Shown: positions 48,501 to 59,157 of the stretch, one piece after another
How positions within the stretch are numbered: the stretch's first letter is position 1
Layout: each line of letters starts with the position of its first letter
Assembly: GCA_903813345.2 (NCBI GenBank)
Contig: CAIIXF020000001.1
Coordinates: 26,401,915-26,465,914, forward strand
Length of the DNA: 64,000 bases
Direction: 5' to 3'
Origin: Owenia fusiformis
Taxonomy: Eukaryota > Annelida > Polychaeta > Sabellida > Oweniidae
Position numbers and translations under genes: made by a program
The notes under the pieces: model-generated
What the model saw: the letters and a program-made list of their open reading frames with translations, nothing else
What the model was told of the DNA's origin: nothing
Database searches by the model: none

Positions 48501-51500
48501 CAAAGTGTCTTGTTTCATATTCTCTTAGCAAATTAGCAGATATAAATATTTCTCTGACATCCTTGCACCAACATTTGTGTCCTAAGATAGTATTTTCATA
48601 ATCAAAGTCGAAAATTCTTCTAGTTAGCCTATCTCTAGGCATTTTGCTCAGTCTAATAAAGAGTCTCACCATCTCTAATCGGTGCCTTATGTTAGGCGGT
48701 ATCCATCCCATATCACCGTAAATTGCTGGAAGGGGAGCGTATTTGCCCAGGCCAAGAAATGTTCGCATTGCTCGATTTTGTACTAGCTGTGGTTTGCTAA
48801 ATTCCTTATATCCCCAAACTCCTGATCCATAGTCCATGATTGGGGTAATTGCACTGTCGTATATCTTAGTATATGTACTGAAGTTTAATCCATTTATGGA
48901 AAAATGTTTGCTGATAAGTCCACCAAGTGCACGACCGCTGGATTCAGCTAATGTTGTTGCAGTTTCGGTGTAGTCCAGTGTCTCGTTTAAAATAAGACTG
49001 AGATAACGGTACGATTTTGCTATCACTAAATTAGAATTTCCAAACTTGAAGTTAAAATCAGTTTTTGACCGTGTAGCCCGTCTGAAATGTGTTACTTGGG
49101 TTTTCTCTGTATTTACAGATAGACGCCATTTCGTTGTCCATACGTACATTGTATCTAACATTAATTGTAAATCCTGTTCCGTTGGCGCAATGAACACCAT
49201 GTCGTCCGCGTAAAGCAGAGTTGAAATATATTCATCGTTAATCCAAATTCCATTATTAAGACCTTTTAAAATATGTGAAACAAACATATTGGACATTTTG
49301 ACATAGCAATTGACCTTTCCTATAAATTCTGCCACCTTTTGCATGGTCAGATTTCTGCCTACAACCAATGAGATCAATTTAGCCGATACTGTGTGGTGTA
49401 TCATAGTTTCTCTGGTATATCACATCTTCGCACGAGAACGCTCAGTCTTCACTACGTTCATCTGACAGGAGCCGAGTGATGAGTATATCAAAAGCTGGCA
49501 GGGTTTAATTGGAAAAGTCTATTGATAACAATTTCTTGCATTCCAGTGGGTAAGACTACCAACTTTTGTGTGCTGACAGCTCAGCTGTGGATCAAGGGTA
49601 AATGTTATGGTACACATAACTTCATGCTCCAGACCAGAAGTCTAGAAGATCACACTTCTCTGCCAGGTAAATTTTACCCTATTCAAGAGTGCATTTGTAT
49701 CACACTCTCTTTTAACACTCTGAAATTGGAAAACTAATCTGAGTTGGTTGTTGCTCTGAGTCACAATTTTGGTATATTTAGATGAATTAAATATTACATG
49801 ATAAGCATTACTCTGTGGTTCTCTCTGATTCTGTTGAACGACAGAGTAATATTTGGAATTCATATTTGATCATAGTCAGAGGGGTCAGTGAATCAGCCAG
49901 TAGCTCAGGCTAGGTAAATATGAAACAGAACTTTTATAACTGATAAATGTAAGAGTGCACAAAGAGCAACATTGGAACGATACAAAAGAAATATTAGCCC
50001 CTATAAACCATGCTTCAAATATTTCTTACATGAGCTATATACGAGTATGAATAAACGTAAGTTTGAAGAAAATTGTATTAATTAAAATACAAGTATGTGT
50101 ATATAACAATCTAAATAATAAACAATGCATATTTTAATACCTTTTTTTAGGAATAACATTAGGTGACATTGGACCAAAGTTTGGCTATTTGTCCAATGAC
50201 AATGGGTTCATGAGATTGAATCATGTACGGATCCCAAGAACCAACATGCTCATGAAGCATTCCCAAGTATGTTCCCTTAATTGTCATGTTGTAGTTATAC
50301 CTTCAGGTTGATATATTTAGATACCATTCTTGTATTAATGGTTGATACAATTTATTAAACATTATAGGACACTCATTTGAATTTAAAGAAATTCCATAAA
50401 GTATTTTTAAGTTGTAATACTACTAATTTGATACTTTACTTTTGTAACACCCTGTTTTCTTGAAACTATACATTTGAATCAAATTTTGGTGACAATATAC
50501 AATACAGCTTAATTTATTGTATTTACAATAGGTCTTGGCTGATGGCACCTATGTGAAACCTGCTAGTTCAAAACTATCATATGGAACAATGGTCTTTGTT
50601 AGAACGATGATAGTTGCAGAGACATCAAGAAGCTTAGCAGAGACAGTTACCATAGCAACACGGTATAGTGCCATTAGAAGACAAAGTGAAATCAAACCTG
50701 GGTAATTATAATTTCATTTCTTTAAAGTGTAACTGTTATCATCAGTCAAATAATATTCAAGTCAATCGAAAGAACAATTTCTTCCAGAATTAGTTATTAC
50801 TTGAGATTGACTTGATATTCATACAATGAACAACTATAGATATGTTATAGACATCATCAGAATACACAGATAACTTTTCACTTTCTAATATGGTGCAATG
50901 AGGTGGTAACAGTGAAATGATGTTGCAGTATAGTTTACCATAGTTGTCAGCTGTCACAAAATTCCACTAGATGCAGACATTTTCTCCATTTTAACCAGTA
51001 TTTTGCTTCTATGAATCTAGTTAATTCTGTTGTTACAGTGATCCAGAGCCTCAAATCCTTGACTACCAAACCCAACAGTTCAAGTTGTTTCCACTACTTG
51101 CCACCAGCTATGCCTTTGACTTTGCTGCCAAGTTCATGAGGGCAAACGTTTCCTCCATTTTAACCAGTATTTTGCTTCTATGAATATAGTGAATTCTGTT
51201 GTTATAGTGATCCAGAGCCTCAAATCCTTGACTACCAAACCCAACAGTTCAAGTTGTTTCCACTACTTGCCACCAGCTACGCCTTTGACTTTGCTGCCAA
51301 GTTCATGAGGGCAGACATTTTCTCCATTTTAACCAGTATTTTGCTTCTATGAATCTCGTTAATTATGTTGTTACAGTGATCCAGAGCCTCAAATACTTGA
51401 CTACCAAACCCAACAGTTCAAGTTGTTTCCACTACTTGCCACCAGCTATGCCTTTGACTTTGCTGCCAAGTTCATGAGGGCCAAGTACCATGAGTTAGAT

Positions 51501-54500
51501 GCCAAAATCCAGCAGGGTCTGGTTGAGGAGATGCCACAGGTTAGTGAGGCTTGAAATCATAAATGTCAGGCTAGGGTAAAAATATGAATTGTTAAACATC
51601 CTTCCTAATTCATCTATTTCAATTTTCATGAGAAGATATGGTGCACTTATCATTTTTTTGAAATATTGAACGTGATTCTAGATATTACACATATTTTAAA
51701 AAAGTACACTATATGTTTTATTATAAGACAGCCTTTGAGAATGTACAAAGATCAAAAACTTCATGCATACATCTTCATCTGCATACAAAAAACCCAGATC
51801 TTACATATTAGGGTATTAAAGTATTGTATATCTATTGCTATTGTGCATTTTTCATACGTTTCATTTTTATGTGCTCACAGGCCGAACTAAAAAACTAAAA
51901 CCAAAAATTATCAAGAAATCCATATTCATTGTTCATATTTGACTTTCAGTTGCATGCATTGTCAGCAGGTCTGAAAGCTTTTACAACTTGGGCATCAAGT
52001 TCTGGAATGGAAGTGTGCCGTATGTCTTGTGGGGGTCATGGGTATTCCCAGGCCAGTGGTTTCCCCAAGATTTACACAGATGCAACCCCTGGGGTGACAT
52101 ATGAAGGCGAGAACACAGTATTGATGTTACAAGTAGCCAGGTAAGCTCAATTTGTATCAACGTATTCCTTTTTCCCTTTTTCACACTATTTTATTTGTGC
52201 ATAAAGATTATGCAGTAAATCCTTTAATCCTTTAACATTGAATACTGCTGAGACTGGTTAAAAGTGTTCGAATTAGCAGGTGTTCACATTTGTTCGAATT
52301 AGCAGGTGTTTACATTTTAAGTTTTTTTGCCAAGAGCATGCACATGAAATTAAACATGAAATACTATTTATATTACTTAGATAACTCTTTTAAAACCAAC
52401 ATCACAATTTTTGCTTCAAACATGACAACGTACAGCAAAAGTGTACATCCGTATATTTTGTCACTGTACCTTGTCAATGGTTTGGCGTGTGATAGTATTC
52501 TCCGATTTTTTCTCCAATCTTATGAATTACACTACATGACTGTAAAAATGGTTTCAGTATACTTTTAACAAATCATTCAAATCTTTTAGGTATCTGGTGA
52601 AGATCTTCAAAGGTGCTAGAAAAGGGACAGAAGAAGCAACAGGATTTGTTTCATATCTGGGGCCGAACTTTTCTCAGGGGGGTCGTGTAGCAGTCCAAAT
52701 GACAAGTGCATCAGGGGTGGACATAAACGCAATGGTAGCAGCCTACAGGAGCAGAGCATACAGGTTAATATCACAATTGTTGTTGTTACTATATTTTTGC
52801 TCACAATAGTCATTGTCATTCTCATTTTCTTGTAGTCCTTTGGTTTTTGACTCACACACCATGTTACTTATATTTTTATGTAGATTCAGGAATTTGTATT
52901 GACTCCAAGGTCATAGATCAAGGTGCTGTTAACAAATATTTTAAATCACCAATGCCATCTATTCCCCTTGTGAGCCCAACGAATTGACTGCCATTTTAAA
53001 GTTATCTAGTTTTTTCATTGTTATTTTTGGACATTTTGTAATCTAAAGAAGGTTGTATATTCAGTGCTCAAAGATAAATGAACGATAAAGTCTATATATA
53101 TTTTTTATATTAAAATGACCATGTCATAATTATGCTTCACTGAATCAAACAAAAAGATTGATGTCAACAATGTTTTTGTTTAATATTTTGCTAATCATGC
53201 ACCAAAGTGCAACTAAGATACATTAAAAACAACTACATGTACCTTAATTCTTCTAACATTTTACTCTATTTCTATTCTTTACAGCCACTTTCTGTTTTTT
53301 CTGCTATATATGTCACAAAGCTAGTTCTTCGTGATATTAGTGTTCAACCATCTCATTTTTCGAAAGTGGATGAGAAATCTATAATTTCTAATACATTTAG
53401 CTGGCAACCAAATCTTTAAGTGAAATACCAAAACAGGCTATTTAAAACAAAAAATCTATTACAACCAATTTAAGTTCCTGAAATATGAAGCTTTGTAAGT
53501 TTACCAGGCTGTGCAGTATGAAGATTAATAATTGTTAAAATGTTAATGTCCATGATCAAAGCTCTAGAATCGATGATCTTGTACAGGTGCTTATATAACA
53601 ACCTCTATAATGTGCATAACAATTATCACGACTGTGTACATTATTGATTCAGCAGAATTGTACTCTAATATGCCATTAGATTAAATATGACCATGTAGGA
53701 TCATTTTCTACAGTCTGTAGAGAAATAAATACAACATTACTGTGCTCATAACAACTTGATAACTTTACCATATTATGTTTCAATTTTACGATTAGACAAT
53801 TTTTCCAAAGGTACCATCTCATGTACCTTGCAATAGTTCTATACTTGATTTTATTTTGGGGACGCATTTTGTGGTTGGTGAAATATTGTTTTGGTAACTA
53901 AAAATTTGATTGATAAAAATAATACTTTGGGATGGAAAGATTGATTTAATTATGATAGCCCACTTCCCAATAGAACAAAATTTGAAAATATTGATTCATC
54001 TTTTACTTGATTTTTCATAAAGAAATTTCCATTTACCCCCACCCCTTTACAAAATATAATTGGTTTTTATTTTTCCACATATTGACATTATCCCTGATTC
54101 CAGTTCTCATTAATATTTTAGTAGGAAATACCCCCAAAATACCATGAAAACTTATATAAAACATTCTTTAAAGAATATGTAATGTTGAAACAACAGGTAA
54201 TACTTCAGAAATGGATTATATGTATAATTTGGAGGAAAAATTTGAGATGGCCCCTAATTATTCATTATACTGATAATACGACATTATAAAATAAAATATA
54301 AACTATGTAACTAGAGGATGTATATAATGGTGTACGAAATCAATATGTGTTATATCAATCAAGCTAATGTGTATGTTTAGTATAATGGTGATCAGATCAC
54401 CTGATCACATGGATTTGTACTAATAACCACTATATTTTACATTAGTCCCTAGCAACAAACAGTGTGATACGAAACATGGCGGAATCAACTGAAGGATCCA

Positions 54501-57500
54501 ATTCGGAAAAAGGTCCCATGACCTACAAATTGATTTTTATTGACTTTTTAAAAACAACTTCCATAAGAGGTCCTCCGAGGATTATTCGAACAAAGCACAA
54601 ACTCTGGCGATTGCTTTACAGTTTTATTTTCATGTTTGTATTGGGAACTAATTGCTTCTGTATTTGGACAACTATAGGTGACTATTTGGCATATCCTGTC
54701 ATTTCTCAGAGTTACATCATTCATAGTGATATGGTCAGTGATAGGGTGGAACATTTTCCCGATATTACCGTATGTGACATTAATGCACCACAACCGCAAT
54801 ATGCTCACCCGAACGGATCTTTGACAGAGCTTGGAATCGAGGCGGAGGTTTTTCTTAGAATGATTTTGACAAACATTGACCAAATATTAGGAGGTGAACC
54901 AGAGAAGGACTTGAATAAATTAAACATGTATGAACTTGATTTGTTAAGAATTCAGAAAAAGGAGCAATTTCTAATTGAGAACAACACACAAGGATTGGAA
55001 TTGATGGAAATGTTTTACTCAACTAGAGGCTATTTACAACAATACACAAGATCCCAACGTTATCAAATTGGACACAGAAAGGAGGATTTTATTGTTGACT
55101 GTAAAAGCTTAGACTGGTATGTATCAGATCAGGAGACATGTAATATGACAAGGATTCTCCTCCACCAGGACCTTGGCTTTCCAAATCTGAACTGCTACAC
55201 AATCCAGCTTCAAACCCAGCCATTTGATATGGTAAAAACTAATGGAGTGTCCTTGGTGCTCTTTTTGGGACCGCCTGGGGACTTCTTACCCGAGGATCCA
55301 CCTTCTCCCGTGCCACTTGATTCAGGCGCTGTTGTGTACCTACACGAGCACAACACAATGCCTTTTCAGCAGACCAGTTTCAATATCCCCGCAGGATTCA
55401 AAACCACTGTCCATTTGGATGTATCGAAAGTAATGAAGTTAAAAAACCCCTATAGCACTTGTAGTGACTCCATTGAACTATTGTTTAAGAATTTAGATGG
55501 CGATCCTTATAAATACACACGGGATGCATGTCTTGCAGAGAACATGCAAAAATGCATGATAAAAAATTGTAAATGCATCATTGATGAGGTACCCGCTATT
55601 GAAAATGTTTCATATTGTTTGAAAACTCAGTCAGATTCGAACATAGTAAAAGAAAATATAAAATGCATGAAGAGGATGAAATCCCCAAAACACATCGCAA
55701 ATTGTGCATTAGGTGAAATCTGCCTTGATCCATGTGAAAAATACATTTATAAGCCACGATTAAGCCACACTGAATGGCCCCAAGAGAACAAACAACTTCC
55801 TGTGTATAATGAATTCATTCGTGGCGGCCCCCACCAGGTGGTATATCATGAATATGAAGCCCTTCTTTATGAAAACTCACCGAATATGACATCATCTGAA
55901 AGAATGAACGCTTTGAAACAACTGAATCTCATAAAGGAATCATTTATCAAATTGGATGTGGTTCTGAACTCTAAAGATATTGTGGCATTCTCAGACAAAC
56001 CTTTCTATACAGGGTTAAGTGTATTAAGCGTCATTGCATCTTCATTGATATTTTGGATAGGGTTTACATTTTTCTCATTGATCGAGATATTAGAGTGTTT
56101 GTTTCACATGGTACTGAGTTGCGTATCGCAAGGTAACAAGAAACCAAGTAGTGTCCATTAAAAGCCTAATGAATAATACAATTGATTGTCATGGAGCTTG
56201 TGTTATTATGTTTAAACAATTCCATGGAAACAAGATATCAAGAACTTGTCATATAGGCAATTCTATTAACCGAACCATTTACAGAATGCATGACATTTAA
56301 TCACTTTTATGTTCAAGTACCTTTTAACGCAATTAAAAATTTATAGAATTATATTCCATTAGTGCTACACCAATAGTATCATTGTACAAAGCATACTCAT
56401 ATTGCATCATATCAGAATTTCAATATCTCCTTTGTTTTACACTCATTGCACTCTAATTTTCAAGCTCTCACAAACTTGATGATGTGGAGATGCAATGAAT
56501 AAAAAACTCAGTATGTATTTTATACCAGGTTGATCAATAATTTGCATTACATTTTTACAGTTCTCTACAATTTTAATCTACAATGGTAATCATGAGTGGT
56601 AATCTCATTCTAGACACTGAAAAAACTTGGTTTGAGGAATGTTTTGTATTTTCTTTTAGTTGAGTTTATTGATCAACTTTCTGTAGGTAGGTATGATACT
56701 GTCGTACTATAAATATATGCTGTGGTATCAAGTTTTTGTACAGTTCTATTAATATAGAAATAAAAACTAATACAAATACAGATGTACAGAACATGCAGTT
56801 ATTGGTATTCTTTATTAAACCCTATAGTGTACCAACTTAGGTAGCAACACAATAAGATCAACTGAACTTTATTTTTAAGAAAGTGCAGTTGCAACAAAAG
56901 AAGAGTACATTCTCTTTCTATTGTTTTTAAAGAATGGACACTTACACCCTACTCAACCACTCATCAATTCACTTACCTTTAGTATCAAGAGTTGAATTGT
57001 CAATACAAAAGGAATCAAATTAAATGGATCATGGACCATTTACCTTTCATATGAGCCAGTGTGGGTTTTAGGTTAGGTAAACCATTCTTACTGGCTCTTA
57101 GGAGAATAATGGCCCCAGGCCATTGGCCCTCAGCCATTATTTCACCTTATAGCCAGTACGAATGGTTTATCTATCACTTCATTGTTGTTTTACATTGGCA
57201 TAAAATACTGGAAGCTGGAATTTTTGCCAGATTAAAACAATCAAAGGCTTCTCCTGAAATCAAGTAAAAAGCTTTAGATTTTTAAGAAAATAGGCATAAC
57301 AATTGCAATGATCGGAGCTGTTTTGTTCAGAAATAATTGGCCAGCGAATCCAAAATGATGTTTTTTGGCAGAAATGTGATGTTTGTAGCAGGTTTACATT
57401 ACTATTAACTCTGTTTTGATAGCTCTGTTTTGTTTTGAATGTGATTATGCCTGTAAGTGGCTACATGAAATCATGTTTTTCAAAATAGCTAGCATTTCTG

Positions 57501-59157
57501 CTTAGACATTTGAGATTTTCTAATGGTCACCAAAATCAAAAGTGTCTTCCTCTGTTTCAGGTTGATAGAAAGTGCATGTGCCAGAGTGGATGCTCTCACA
57601 AAGGGAGGAATGGAGTTTGTGTTTGCTTGGAACAAAACATCAGTGGATCTAGTCAAGTGTGCCACTGTAAGTAATATATCTACAGGGTGGTGCAGAAATA
57701 TGGCAACTGCCCTCCCTTAAAGTCATGTTATGTGAATAACAAATATTTCCCTTGGATAAACCCTGTATCTAAAACATCTCAGCAAATAACTTTTATAAAT
57801 GCGAGCCAGAGGGTTGTTATTTGTCAAAAATCAACACTGCATACAGGTTGATTGATAAGCAATGAAATTAGTGCTCTCATTTACATTTGTTATTGACCAT
57901 TCAATCCTGTACTGTTTCTTCACAATGCTATTTGTTGGTATGCTGTACCAATGTATACAATTTGATGCTTTGTTCATTATTTCAGGCTCATTGCCATTAC
58001 TTCGTAGTGGATAATTTTTTGACTGGCATAAATTCCCTGGAGTGCGCTCCAGCAATTAGGAAAGTCCTTGGAAACTTGTGTGACTTGTATGCCTGCTATG
58101 GTATTGCTGAAAATTCAGGAGATTTTCTACAGGTATTTCAACTTTGTCTCATTCCTAATATTTTACAGACTCTGGGAGACATTAAAACTAGAATCTTGCT
58201 TTTTTCATTTTTATTTATTATATTTTTGTTTCATTTTGATGAAAAACATCTGAGTTTTTGAGAATTGTAAATAGTGAATTCTTCTATTTTGATTTGTTTG
58301 TAATAGTATCAGACTTGTACAAGAGCTTTTAATAAATCGGGTTCAATATTCTCTTGTCAGGGTGAGCACCTATCTGCCAAGCAAATATCTGATGTGCGGG
58401 CCAAAATGCTTGACCTACTTGCTGTAATACGTCCTGATGCTGTCAGTCTTGTTGATGCCTTTGATTTCCATGATCGCTTACTTGGTTCTGTGCTGGGTCG
58501 TTATGATGGTCAGGTGTATGAAAACCTCTACAAATACGCTTTGGAGTCTCCACTAAACGACAATGATGTGAGTACAATAGTGTTCTATTAAAGCCTCACT
58601 ATGCAAATTTTGAATATTTTTGGCAAAATAAAGGCTTACCTTTGAACTTCATAGTATTTCCAATGGATTGACAAGTACTTTATCTTTCATTAGACATCAA
58701 AACATGATTCAGTACATGATTCATTTATTTTTATAGAAGTGTTGTCATCTTTTAAATCAAGAGTTATTTCAAAACATGCACTTTCAAAAATGTGCATGCA
58801 CTACTAAAGTGCAAATTAAGCTTTGTATCTTATTTGATTGAGTGTGTAAATAACATGTTCCAATGATTGTTTACTCTTTTCCCCTTCTAAATTACGCATA
58901 GTGGGCCTTATACTTTTCTCTTTTCTCCTTCTAAATTACGCATAGTGGGCCTTATACTACTAGTATAGCAATTCTAAGAAATATTAGAAATTAATATAGA
59001 AATTCTAAGAATTATTATTCATCCATTACTTAAATCCTTTTAATGGTTTTTCATTCCAATGACATTATATCGCATAAATTATTTATTTATTTACTTCCAG
59101 GTCCACGAGTCTTACTATAAATATCTGAAGCCCTTAGCACGAGCTTCCAAGCTTTAG
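42564..59157 (+). CDS. ACOX1: Peroxisomal acyl-CoA oxidase (ACOX1 type)
   Basis: Fourteen coding exons: 42564-42684, 46399-46558, 46862-47022, 47476-47583, 49547-49666, 50151-50266, 50532-50701, 51377-51539, 51950-52140, 52590-52763, 57561-57666, 57986-58132, 58361-58567 and 59101-59157. They total 2001 bp, giving 666 aa (human 660). The enzyme oxidises acyl-CoA to 2-trans-enoyl-CoA using FAD and O2, releasing H2O2; it is the first step of peroxisomal beta-oxidation. The family blocks are clear: [20 protein letters not shown] (FAD region), [40 protein letters not shown] and [12 protein letters not shown], whose Glu near residue 425 corresponds to the catalytic base. The C-terminus is SKL, a perfect type 1 peroxisomal signal. 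Exon 8 is preceded by two partial copies of itself (see 50973-51479). Intron 10 holds a channel gene. The poly(A) signal AATAAA is at 59474. Identity is secure. Confidence 0.97.
42841..43078 (+). mobile_element. tRNA-derived SINE
   Basis: The A-box TAACTCAGTGG (42852-42862) and B-box GATTCGATCCC (42895-42905) are correctly spaced, but the flanks do not form an acceptor stem. The body contains GGGTGTTTGACTGAGT, shared (one mismatch) with the SINE at 61035-61280, and ends in an AATAC simple repeat. It is in ACOX1 intron 1. Confidence 0.75.
43789..43906. repeat. Near-perfect palindrome, 55-bp arms
   Basis: The left arm begins GTACCTGTGCAAGATCGTCC and is mirrored to 43906; the centre reads GAGTCGAAGACGAG. 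Only a few mismatches separate the arms. A decayed relative of one half, read in the opposite orientation, is at 53565-53617. Downstream to about 44280 several TATGACGTCA motifs follow and may belong to the same element. It is in ACOX1 intron 1. Confidence 0.75.
44339..45088. mobile_element. hAT-like non-autonomous element with CACGCATT subterminal repeats
   Basis: The right end reads CAGGGCTGTCAAC on the complement strand. The left end, CTGCCCTGTCAAC, matches it with three mismatches. TAATTC is directly repeated outside both ends (44333-44338 and 45089-45094), a plausible target duplication, though hAT elements usually make 8 bp. The motif CACGCATT or its complement recurs at least six times, clustered towards both ends, like transposase-binding subterminal repeats. 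There is no transposase frame in the 750 bp. It is in ACOX1 intron 1. Confidence 0.6.
47900..49410 (-). pseudogene. 5'-truncated non-LTR retrotransposon (LINE), reverse transcriptase C-terminal part
   Basis: A minus-strand frame from 49404 to 48001 encodes about 470 residues with a single in-frame TGA at 48451-48453. It has the catalytic box [16 protein letters not shown], then [13 protein letters not shown], typical of LINE reverse transcriptases. It also has a C-terminal zinc-knuckle-like stretch (RLCLHC ... [12 protein letters not shown]). The upstream fingers, palm start and endonuclease are missing, as expected for a 5'-truncated copy. With only one stop, it is fairly young. It is inserted in ACOX1 intron 4, antisense to the gene. 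I cannot assign the clade with certainty. Confidence 0.85.
50973..51479 (+). repeat. 169-bp tandem triplication copying the ACOX1 exon 8 acceptor
   Basis: Three head-to-tail units start at 50973, 51142 and 51311, each exactly 169 bp. Each contains the end of intron 7, an AG acceptor and the first 103 bp or so of exon 8. Only the third continues into the rest of the exon and its donor at 51539. Acceptors are at 51038, 51207 and 51376. Copies differ at several sites (for example TTATAG in copy 2 versus TTACAG). Reading through copy 1 or 2 gives an in-frame TGA within the next unit. Confidence 0.95.
54476..56161 (+). CDS. DEG/ENaC-family (degenerin/ASIC/FaNaC-like) cation channel, intronless
   Basis: A single uninterrupted frame of 561 codons lies inside ACOX1 intron 10 on the same strand. 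I start at ATG 54476 (context AAACATGG); the frame also opens 12 bp earlier, but with GTG. The topology fits DEG/ENaC: a short cytoplasmic N-terminus with TTSIRGPPR (where most members have His-Gly), TM1 at about 44-66, the post-TM1 motif FPDITVC (94-100), a long extracellular region rich in Cys (for example KCMIKNCKC), and TM2 at about 513-540 ending SLIEILECL. At the selectivity-filter position, normally G-x-S, the sequence reads GFT (529-531). These proteins form trimeric sodium or cation channels gated by protons, peptides or mechanical force. The ligand cannot be predicted. No introns and an intact frame suggest either a lineage-typical single-exon gene or a retrocopy under selection. Confidence 0.9.
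   Translation: MAESTEGSNSEKGPMTYKLIFIDFLKTTSIRGPPRIIRTKHKLWRLLYSFIFMFVLGTNCFCIWTTIGDYLAYPVISQSYIIHSDMVSDRVEHFPDITVCDINAPQPQYAHPNGSLTELGIEAEVFLRMILTNIDQILGGEPEKDLNKLNMYELDLLRIQKKEQFLIENNTQGLELMEMFYSTRGYLQQYTRSQRYQIGHRKEDFIVDCKSLDWYVSDQETCNMTRILLHQDLGFPNLNCYTIQLQTQPFDMVKTNGVSLVLFLGPPGDFLPEDPPSPVPLDSGAVVYLHEHNTMPFQQTSFNIPAGFKTTVHLDVSKVMKLKNPYSTCSDSIELLFKNLDGDPYKYTRDACLAENMQKCMIKNCKCIIDEVPAIENVSYCLKTQSDSNIVKENIKCMKRMKSPKHIANCALGEICLDPCEKYIYKPRLSHTEWPQENKQLPVYNEFIRGGPHQVVYHEYEALLYENSPNMTSSERMNALKQLNLIKESFIKLDVVLNSKDIVAFSDKPFYTGLSVLSVIASSLIFWIGFTFFSLIEILECLFHMVLSCVSQGNKKPSSVH
57079..57172. repeat. Hairpin inverted repeat in ACOX1 intron 10
   Basis: GTAAACCATTCTTACTGGCT near 57078 pairs with AGCCAGTACGAATGGTTTAT near 57153-57172, enclosing the inner pair AATAATGGCC / GGCCATTGGCC-like sequence. 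It is a short MITE-like hairpin. Confidence 0.65.
58877..58957. repeat. 44-bp tandem duplication in ACOX1 intron 13
   Basis: CTTCTAAATTACGCATAGTG and its flanks occur twice in direct orientation, 44 bp apart, with one or two differences. Confidence 0.85.

Follow-up and report, generated by a model that had tools for sequence, protein, structure and literature searches.

Members of the DEG/ENaC family are known mainly as excitatory Na+ channels. What sets their selection between Na+ and K+ is disputed, the candidates being the G-x-S belt of the second transmembrane segment (TM2), the re-entrant His-Gly (HG) loop before the first (TM1), and the acidic ring at positions 18' and 21' (PMC8594623). 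Mutants are hard to interpret because most belt or loop substitutions weaken or kill the channel. Here, we describe a DEG/ENaC gene in a 64,000-nucleotide stretch of Owenia fusiformis DNA (GenBank assembly GCA_903813345.2, contig CAIIXF020000001.1, positions 26,401,915 to 26,465,914 of the forward strand; the window). The gene belongs to a clade of nine genes with Arg-Gly (RG) in the loop and G-x-T (GxT) in the belt.

The HG loop of ASIC1 forms part of the lining of the lower pore and is bonded to the belt Ser of the neighbouring subunit; in alpha-ENaC, an H-to-R change abolishes current (PMC7308080). The H28R mutant of human ASIC1a (hASIC1a) is non-selective with 11% of the current left; in its model, R28 touches S446 (12') and T449 of the neighbour. 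Selectivity was also reduced by L448F, at 14' by our own numbering from G444 = 10' (PMC8594623). E18' and D21' set the Na+ selectivity of ASIC1a, and S12' adds little (PMC5449180). In alpha-ENaC, the K+ to Na+ permeability ratio (PK/PNa), none with S12', rose to 0.23, 0.31, and 0.71 when this Ser was replaced by C, D, or N, respectively (PMC8536179). The Caenorhabditis elegans channel DEGT-1 has a GAT belt and no HG, and CeDEGT-1d showed a PK/PNa of 1.725 and a Cs+ to Na+ ratio (PCs/PNa) of 1.553 (PMC8536179). FaNaCs are Na+ channels of molluscs and annelids that are gated by FMRFamide. FaNaC activation by FMRFamide and Wamide requires the arginine R288 of Aplysia (PMC9234716). A later structure located FMRFamide away from R288, in a pocket of the finger domain that is divergent even among FaNaCs (PMC11026163). 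Among the literature matches listed, only PMC9949801 brought together O. fusiformis and ENaC; it characterises the ASIC of this species, with a PNa/PK of 12.0.

A nine-gene clade with altered loop and belt sites

The frame of the window gene was open from ATG (context AAACATGG) to TAA, and the probability of 561 stop-free codons at the base composition of the window is 3e-19. The Pfam ASC model (PF00858) matched residues 24-540 (E 7.3e-51; 174.1 bits against a cut-off of 23.6), covering model positions 1-454 of 455. A large ectodomain lies between two hydropathy peaks, which is the DEG/ENaC layout (Table 1). An earlier note on this DNA, made from the sequence alone, had described an intact full-length frame with two membrane segments, an FPxxTxC motif, and a Cys-rich ectodomain. 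All of this was upheld, the motif being FPDITVC and 13 of the 14 conserved ectodomain Cys columns being present, compared to 14 of 14 in the other eight clade genes (L001-L008). The missing Cys, replaced by Asn356, is kept in L001-L008 and in 83 of the 84 non-clade rows of the family alignment. Cys360 stands four residues, or about one helical turn, after it, so a relocated disulfide is possible.

Two family hallmarks, neither of them universal, are changed in the window gene: Arg-Gly replaces the His-Gly before TM1, and GFT replaces the G/S-x-S of TM2. The earlier note had reported both, and their placement was confirmed in two ways. A 93-row alignment of DEG/ENaC genes of this genome (92 loci plus the window gene) agreed with it, and a profile of eight clade genes against two solved FaNaCs aligned RG on His-Gly and GFT on G-I-S. 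The sole further G-x-S near TM2, GLS at residues 513-515, was rejected as a displaced canonical motif, being absent from the sister genes; no canonical G-x-S is displaced elsewhere in TM2, and the closest relatives carry the same odd motif. Sequencing or assembly error was also rejected as its source, the motif being common to nine loci on five contigs. A single-sequence structure prediction of the protein gave a mean predicted local distance difference test score (pLDDT) of 37.3 and a predicted template modelling score (pTM) of 0.23 and was not used. Scans for promoters, AATAAA, and repeats around the gene returned nothing usable.

The genome (498.26 Mb, 525 contigs) contains at least 95 rows of PF00858 matches on contigs C1-C12 (32-62 Mb each), many in small clusters. 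At least 85 of these 95 rows begin at model position 5 or before and reach position 449 or beyond with no stop. Because 92 of 211 candidates were scored, the family size given is a minimum, and a partial match seen in protein searches (C4:27468959) lies outside the 92 aligned loci. Most family genes here are intronless. Therefore, the single exon noted earlier for the window gene is real and not distinctive, such genes being common in O. fusiformis.

The same nine loci ranked at the top whether the query was the window protein, L006, or L003. The gap between the ninth and the next score was wide with the window protein (152 vs 94 bits) and L006 (178 vs 101), and narrow with L003 (122 vs 110). 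The nine loci are spread over five contigs: the window gene and L001 on C1, L005 on C9, L008 on C8, a cluster of L002-L004 on C6, and a pair of L006-L007 on C5. A tree of 89 rows (L021, L081, L090, and L092 left out), computed on 414 columns of the ectodomain and none of the loop or belt, grouped them in one clade with support of 100/100. The clade tentatively joined L022, L031, L032, and L033 at only 87/67, where long branches meet in a tree without a reference FaNaC. Overall identity among the eight aligned clade genes was 29-83%. The earlier suggestion of a divergent molluscan subfamily thus stands as to the subfamily, which is a clade of nine paralogues; the animal is an annelid, not a mollusc. 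PF16915 (Eryth_link_C), taken here as an annelid marker, has three matches above its cut-off in the genome. Each of the two published primers for O. fusiformis syt1 (PMC8111721) has one exact match, both on C11, where they point towards each other across 32 kb; the forward primer for elav1 has no exact match.

L008 is the one clade member with an apparent intron (positions 1528-2013), just upstream of TM2. This 486-base GT-AG intron, inferred from the sequence, joins two pieces in frame, and the reading of L008 as a pseudogene was rejected on this ground.

The eight aligned clade genes share I6', F7', I9', G10', F11', T12', F14', E18', and E21'. The pore of L008, read past the intron as IFWIGCTFFSCLEIIE, has a GCT belt and also keeps F7', I9', and G10'. 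I6', T12', F14', E18', and E21' are therefore found in 9/9 clade genes and F11' in 8/9, and no clade gene has an acid at 0'. Among the non-clade genes, S12' and G10' were found in 81/81, G6' in 80/81, and an acid at 0' in 73/81, compared to F14' in 2/81 (L072 and L089) and E21' in 6 of the 80 read there. The pore sample is 81 because the pore is absent from the frame used in L081, L090, and L092. Five of the 81 canonical genes combine Phe at 11' with S12' (GFS), and the residue at 11' is Cys in one clade member. Phe at 11' is thus incidental, and what stays constant is the change from Ser to Thr at 12'.

Across the 93 rows, the HG site reads HG in 68, RG in 9, QS in 4, NG in 3, QP in 2, gaps in 3, and PG, HS, QG, and HA in one each. 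RG occurs in 9/9 clade genes and Arg at this site in 0/81 others, the region being absent in L021, L029, and L091. Arg and T12' co-occur, and within this alignment they are confined to the clade.

Two side observations concern other family members. L075, L080, L081, and L083-L087 have lost HG (QS, QP, HS, or QG), and the seven of them with a pore read all keep S12'. L019 (C9:25408550-25410350), a DEG/ENaC gene on a long branch, has V6' and carries Pro-Gly at the HG site; its E18' is replaced by His, which makes it the sole gene without E18' among those read at 18'.

The combined pore variant appears to be new as a conserved multigene lineage, and the kind of channel is already known. Among the papers listed, titles and abstract openings reported no RG or GxT DEG/ENaC clade, a coverage that takes in few subscription papers and leaves the absence unproven. 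In the literature passages covered, DEGT-1 was the only GxT channel.

Conservation, ion selectivity, and gating

Five close clade pairs, which do not include the window gene, are under purifying selection. The ratio of nonsynonymous to synonymous substitution rates (dN/dS; Nei-Gojobori, own script) was 0.34-0.46 for the whole gene and 0-0.28 for TM2. The window gene stood outside this comparison, its synonymous sites being saturated against L001. In the 21 clade pairs whose ectodomains are 28-38% identical, identity was 67% before TM1 and 59% in the belt from 10' to 21', compared to 42% and 45.5% in 550 canonical pairs; the pairs overlap, so these values are descriptive and carry no test. L008, L021, L029, L077, L081, L090, L091, and L092 are excluded from the canonical pair set. 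Within the clade genes, conservation is thus highest in loop and belt. This speaks for a working pore and fits one kept for a purpose, unlike decay. Decay of the clade genes was rejected because of their intact frames and dN/dS values.

The earlier note had also raised a receptor-like, non-conducting member. Such a protein, or a decaying one, would fit the change of two hallmark motifs and the displaced ectodomain Cys of the window gene. It is nevertheless very improbable, because loop and belt are conserved above the rest of the protein, TM2 dN/dS does not exceed 0.28 in the five pairs, and the window gene keeps an intact frame at 36% identity to its nearest sister.

The most likely reading, at about even odds, is that these genes encode functional DEG/ENaC subunits with a weakly selective, K+-permeable cation pore. 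The protein would form the usual trimer, in which the loop Arg would now make the contact to the neighbour's 12' hydroxyl. Loop and belt would have changed together as a consequence of this contact. The belt would then be wider, and the resulting cation pore would hardly favour Na+ over K+, being permeable to K+ and perhaps even preferring it, like worm DEGT-1. The earlier expectation that a bulky Phe and Thr alter selectivity may be right in its outcome, with support from the published mutants and DEGT-1. Its stress on Phe is not supported, given the GFS belts of canonical genes and the GCT belt within the clade.

Several points weigh against a weakly selective pore of this kind. Identity in outer TM2 (-6' to 9') was slightly lower in the clade pairs (39.6%) than in the canonical pairs (44.1%). 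Loop and belt sites need not change together, as far as can be read from this family: HG was lost in 13 non-clade genes, and S12' was kept in all 11 of those with the pore read. The co-occurrence of Arg and T12' within this genome is one event. No S12'T mutant was found in the literature passages covered. The clade also keeps E18' and E21', and the part of this ring in the Na+ selectivity of ASIC1a argues for a selective pore.

The last point is the core of a somewhat unlikely alternative, in which the E18'/E21' ring sets selectivity, the channel is Na+-selective, and the belt and loop changes tune gating or block. Both acids are present in all nine clade genes and E21' in just six of the 80 others; E18' and D21' dominate in ASIC1a, and ENaC carries E18' and E21' (PMC5449180). 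However, DEGT-1, H28R, and L448F point the other way, and positions 6' and 0' are also altered in the clade.

The current left in ASIC1a H28R and the loss of current in the corresponding alpha-ENaC mutant might likewise count against a weakly selective homomer, which might need compensating changes elsewhere in order to conduct. They fit an obligate partner, akin to the modulatory subunit suggested in the earlier note, that conducts only in heterotrimers with canonical subunits, altering their selectivity or gating, and many DEG/ENaCs form heteromers (PMC10424705). This explanation is quite improbable; nine paralogues with one pore type could form homomers or heteromers within the clade, and the sequence points to no partner.

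Within the weakly selective reading, a stronger form is that the clade is a natural K+-preferring lineage, its belt and loop rebuilt jointly with the acidic ring kept, convergent with DEGT-1. On present comparisons this is unlikely. DEGT-1, with its GAT belt and lost HG, is presumably an independent case. A K+-preferring lineage, if real, would carry outward K+ current and could inhibit cells rather than excite them. The clade offers a natural test of selectivity, with belt and loop altered in nine genes, the ring intact, and canonical paralogues of the same genome as controls. Selection would be governed by belt and loop should the nine genes prove unselective or K+-preferring, and by the acidic ring should they prove Na+-selective.

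For gating, the clade profile was closest, among solved structures, to FaNaC (1.7e-44 and 9.3e-43 for 7yvb and 8on7), followed by alpha-ENaC (6.7e-33) and ASIC1 (1.4e-29). The site of R288 is occupied by Ile, Val, or Ala in the eight aligned clade genes (Val286 in the window gene) and by Lys in L008, and Arg or Lys is found in 68 of the 84 non-clade rows. FaNaC-type peptide gating therefore seems unlikely for most members, and another extracellular ligand or constitutive activity would be more likely because eight of nine lack Arg or Lys there. The Lys of L008 is a point on the other side. So is the finger-pocket peptide site, through which R288 would inform activation and not binding.

Feature coordinates and the ACOX1 host gene

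Table 1. Positions of the channel gene, its landmark sites, and the host intron in the window.
Feature	Position	Strand	Basis
Single-exon DEG/ENaC gene, RG/GxT subfamily, 561 amino acids	54476..56161	+	open reading frame and Pfam match
Codons for Arg31-Gly32 in the re-entrant loop (His-Gly position)	54566..54571	+	alignment
TM1, approximate, residues 45-68	54608..54679	+	hydropathy
FPDITVC, conserved post-TM1 motif (FPxxTxC)	54755..54775	+	alignment
Codons 356-360, conserved Cys changed to Asn356, new Cys360	55541..55555	+	alignment
TM2 region, approximate, residues 510-551	56003..56128	+	hydropathy
G10'-F11'-T12' (Gly529-Phe530-Thr531) at the G-x-S belt	56060..56068	+	alignment
Phe at 14' (residue 533)	56072..56074	+	alignment
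E18' (residue 537) to E21' (residue 540), retained lower acidic ring	56084..56095	+	alignment
ACOX1 host intron	52764..57560	+ (same strand as channel gene)	splice sites inferred from sequence

The nesting of the channel gene in an ACOX1 intron, as first proposed in the earlier note, was supported by ACOX exons on both sides and on the same strand. The inferred intron has the donor CAG/GTTAAT and the acceptor TTTCAG/GTTGAT. Ten frames were scanned, and eight matched acyl-CoA oxidase domains; no domain match was found for 50138-50308 and 52546-52806. Of the eight, the frame nearest downstream of the gene (57514-57717) gave a weak match below the cut-off (E 0.0094). Hand-joined exon translations, which take in the 52546 and 57514 frames, gave E 1.6e-90 against acyl-CoA oxidase 1is2 and E 6.3e-90 against peroxisomal acyl-coenzyme A oxidase 1 (7q84).

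A 169-base unit is repeated three times in tandem at 50973-51481 with 95% matches. It spans the end of an intron and the 5' portion of the ACOX exon that follows, and the full exon continues only from the third copy. By their sequence, the first two copies would add splice acceptors for which no donor is evident.

Comparison with known channels

The clade and FaNaC belong to the same protein family, and the E18' and E21' of the clade are also found in the two FaNaC chains aligned. However, these solved chains have HG and GIS, whereas the clade has RG and GxT. Peptide activation of FaNaC needs R288, in contrast to the Ile, Val, or Ala of 8/9 clade genes and the Lys of one.

ENaC is of the same family and has E18' and E21' as in the clade (PMC5449180). 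Unlike the clade, it keeps HG and G/S-x-S, and it is almost impermeable to K+ (PMC8536179).

The hASIC1a mutants H28R and L448F carry the same residues as the clade at the His of HG and at 14' (PMC8594623). They are engineered single changes in a canonical pore, whereas the clade combination is natural and adds T12' and I6'.

DEGT-1 shares a GxT belt (GAT) and the loss of HG with 9/9 clade genes, and it is the only channel without S12' in the alignment of one review (PMC8536179). In contrast to the annelid genes, it is a nematode channel, and its PK/PNa was measured as a degenerin mutant.

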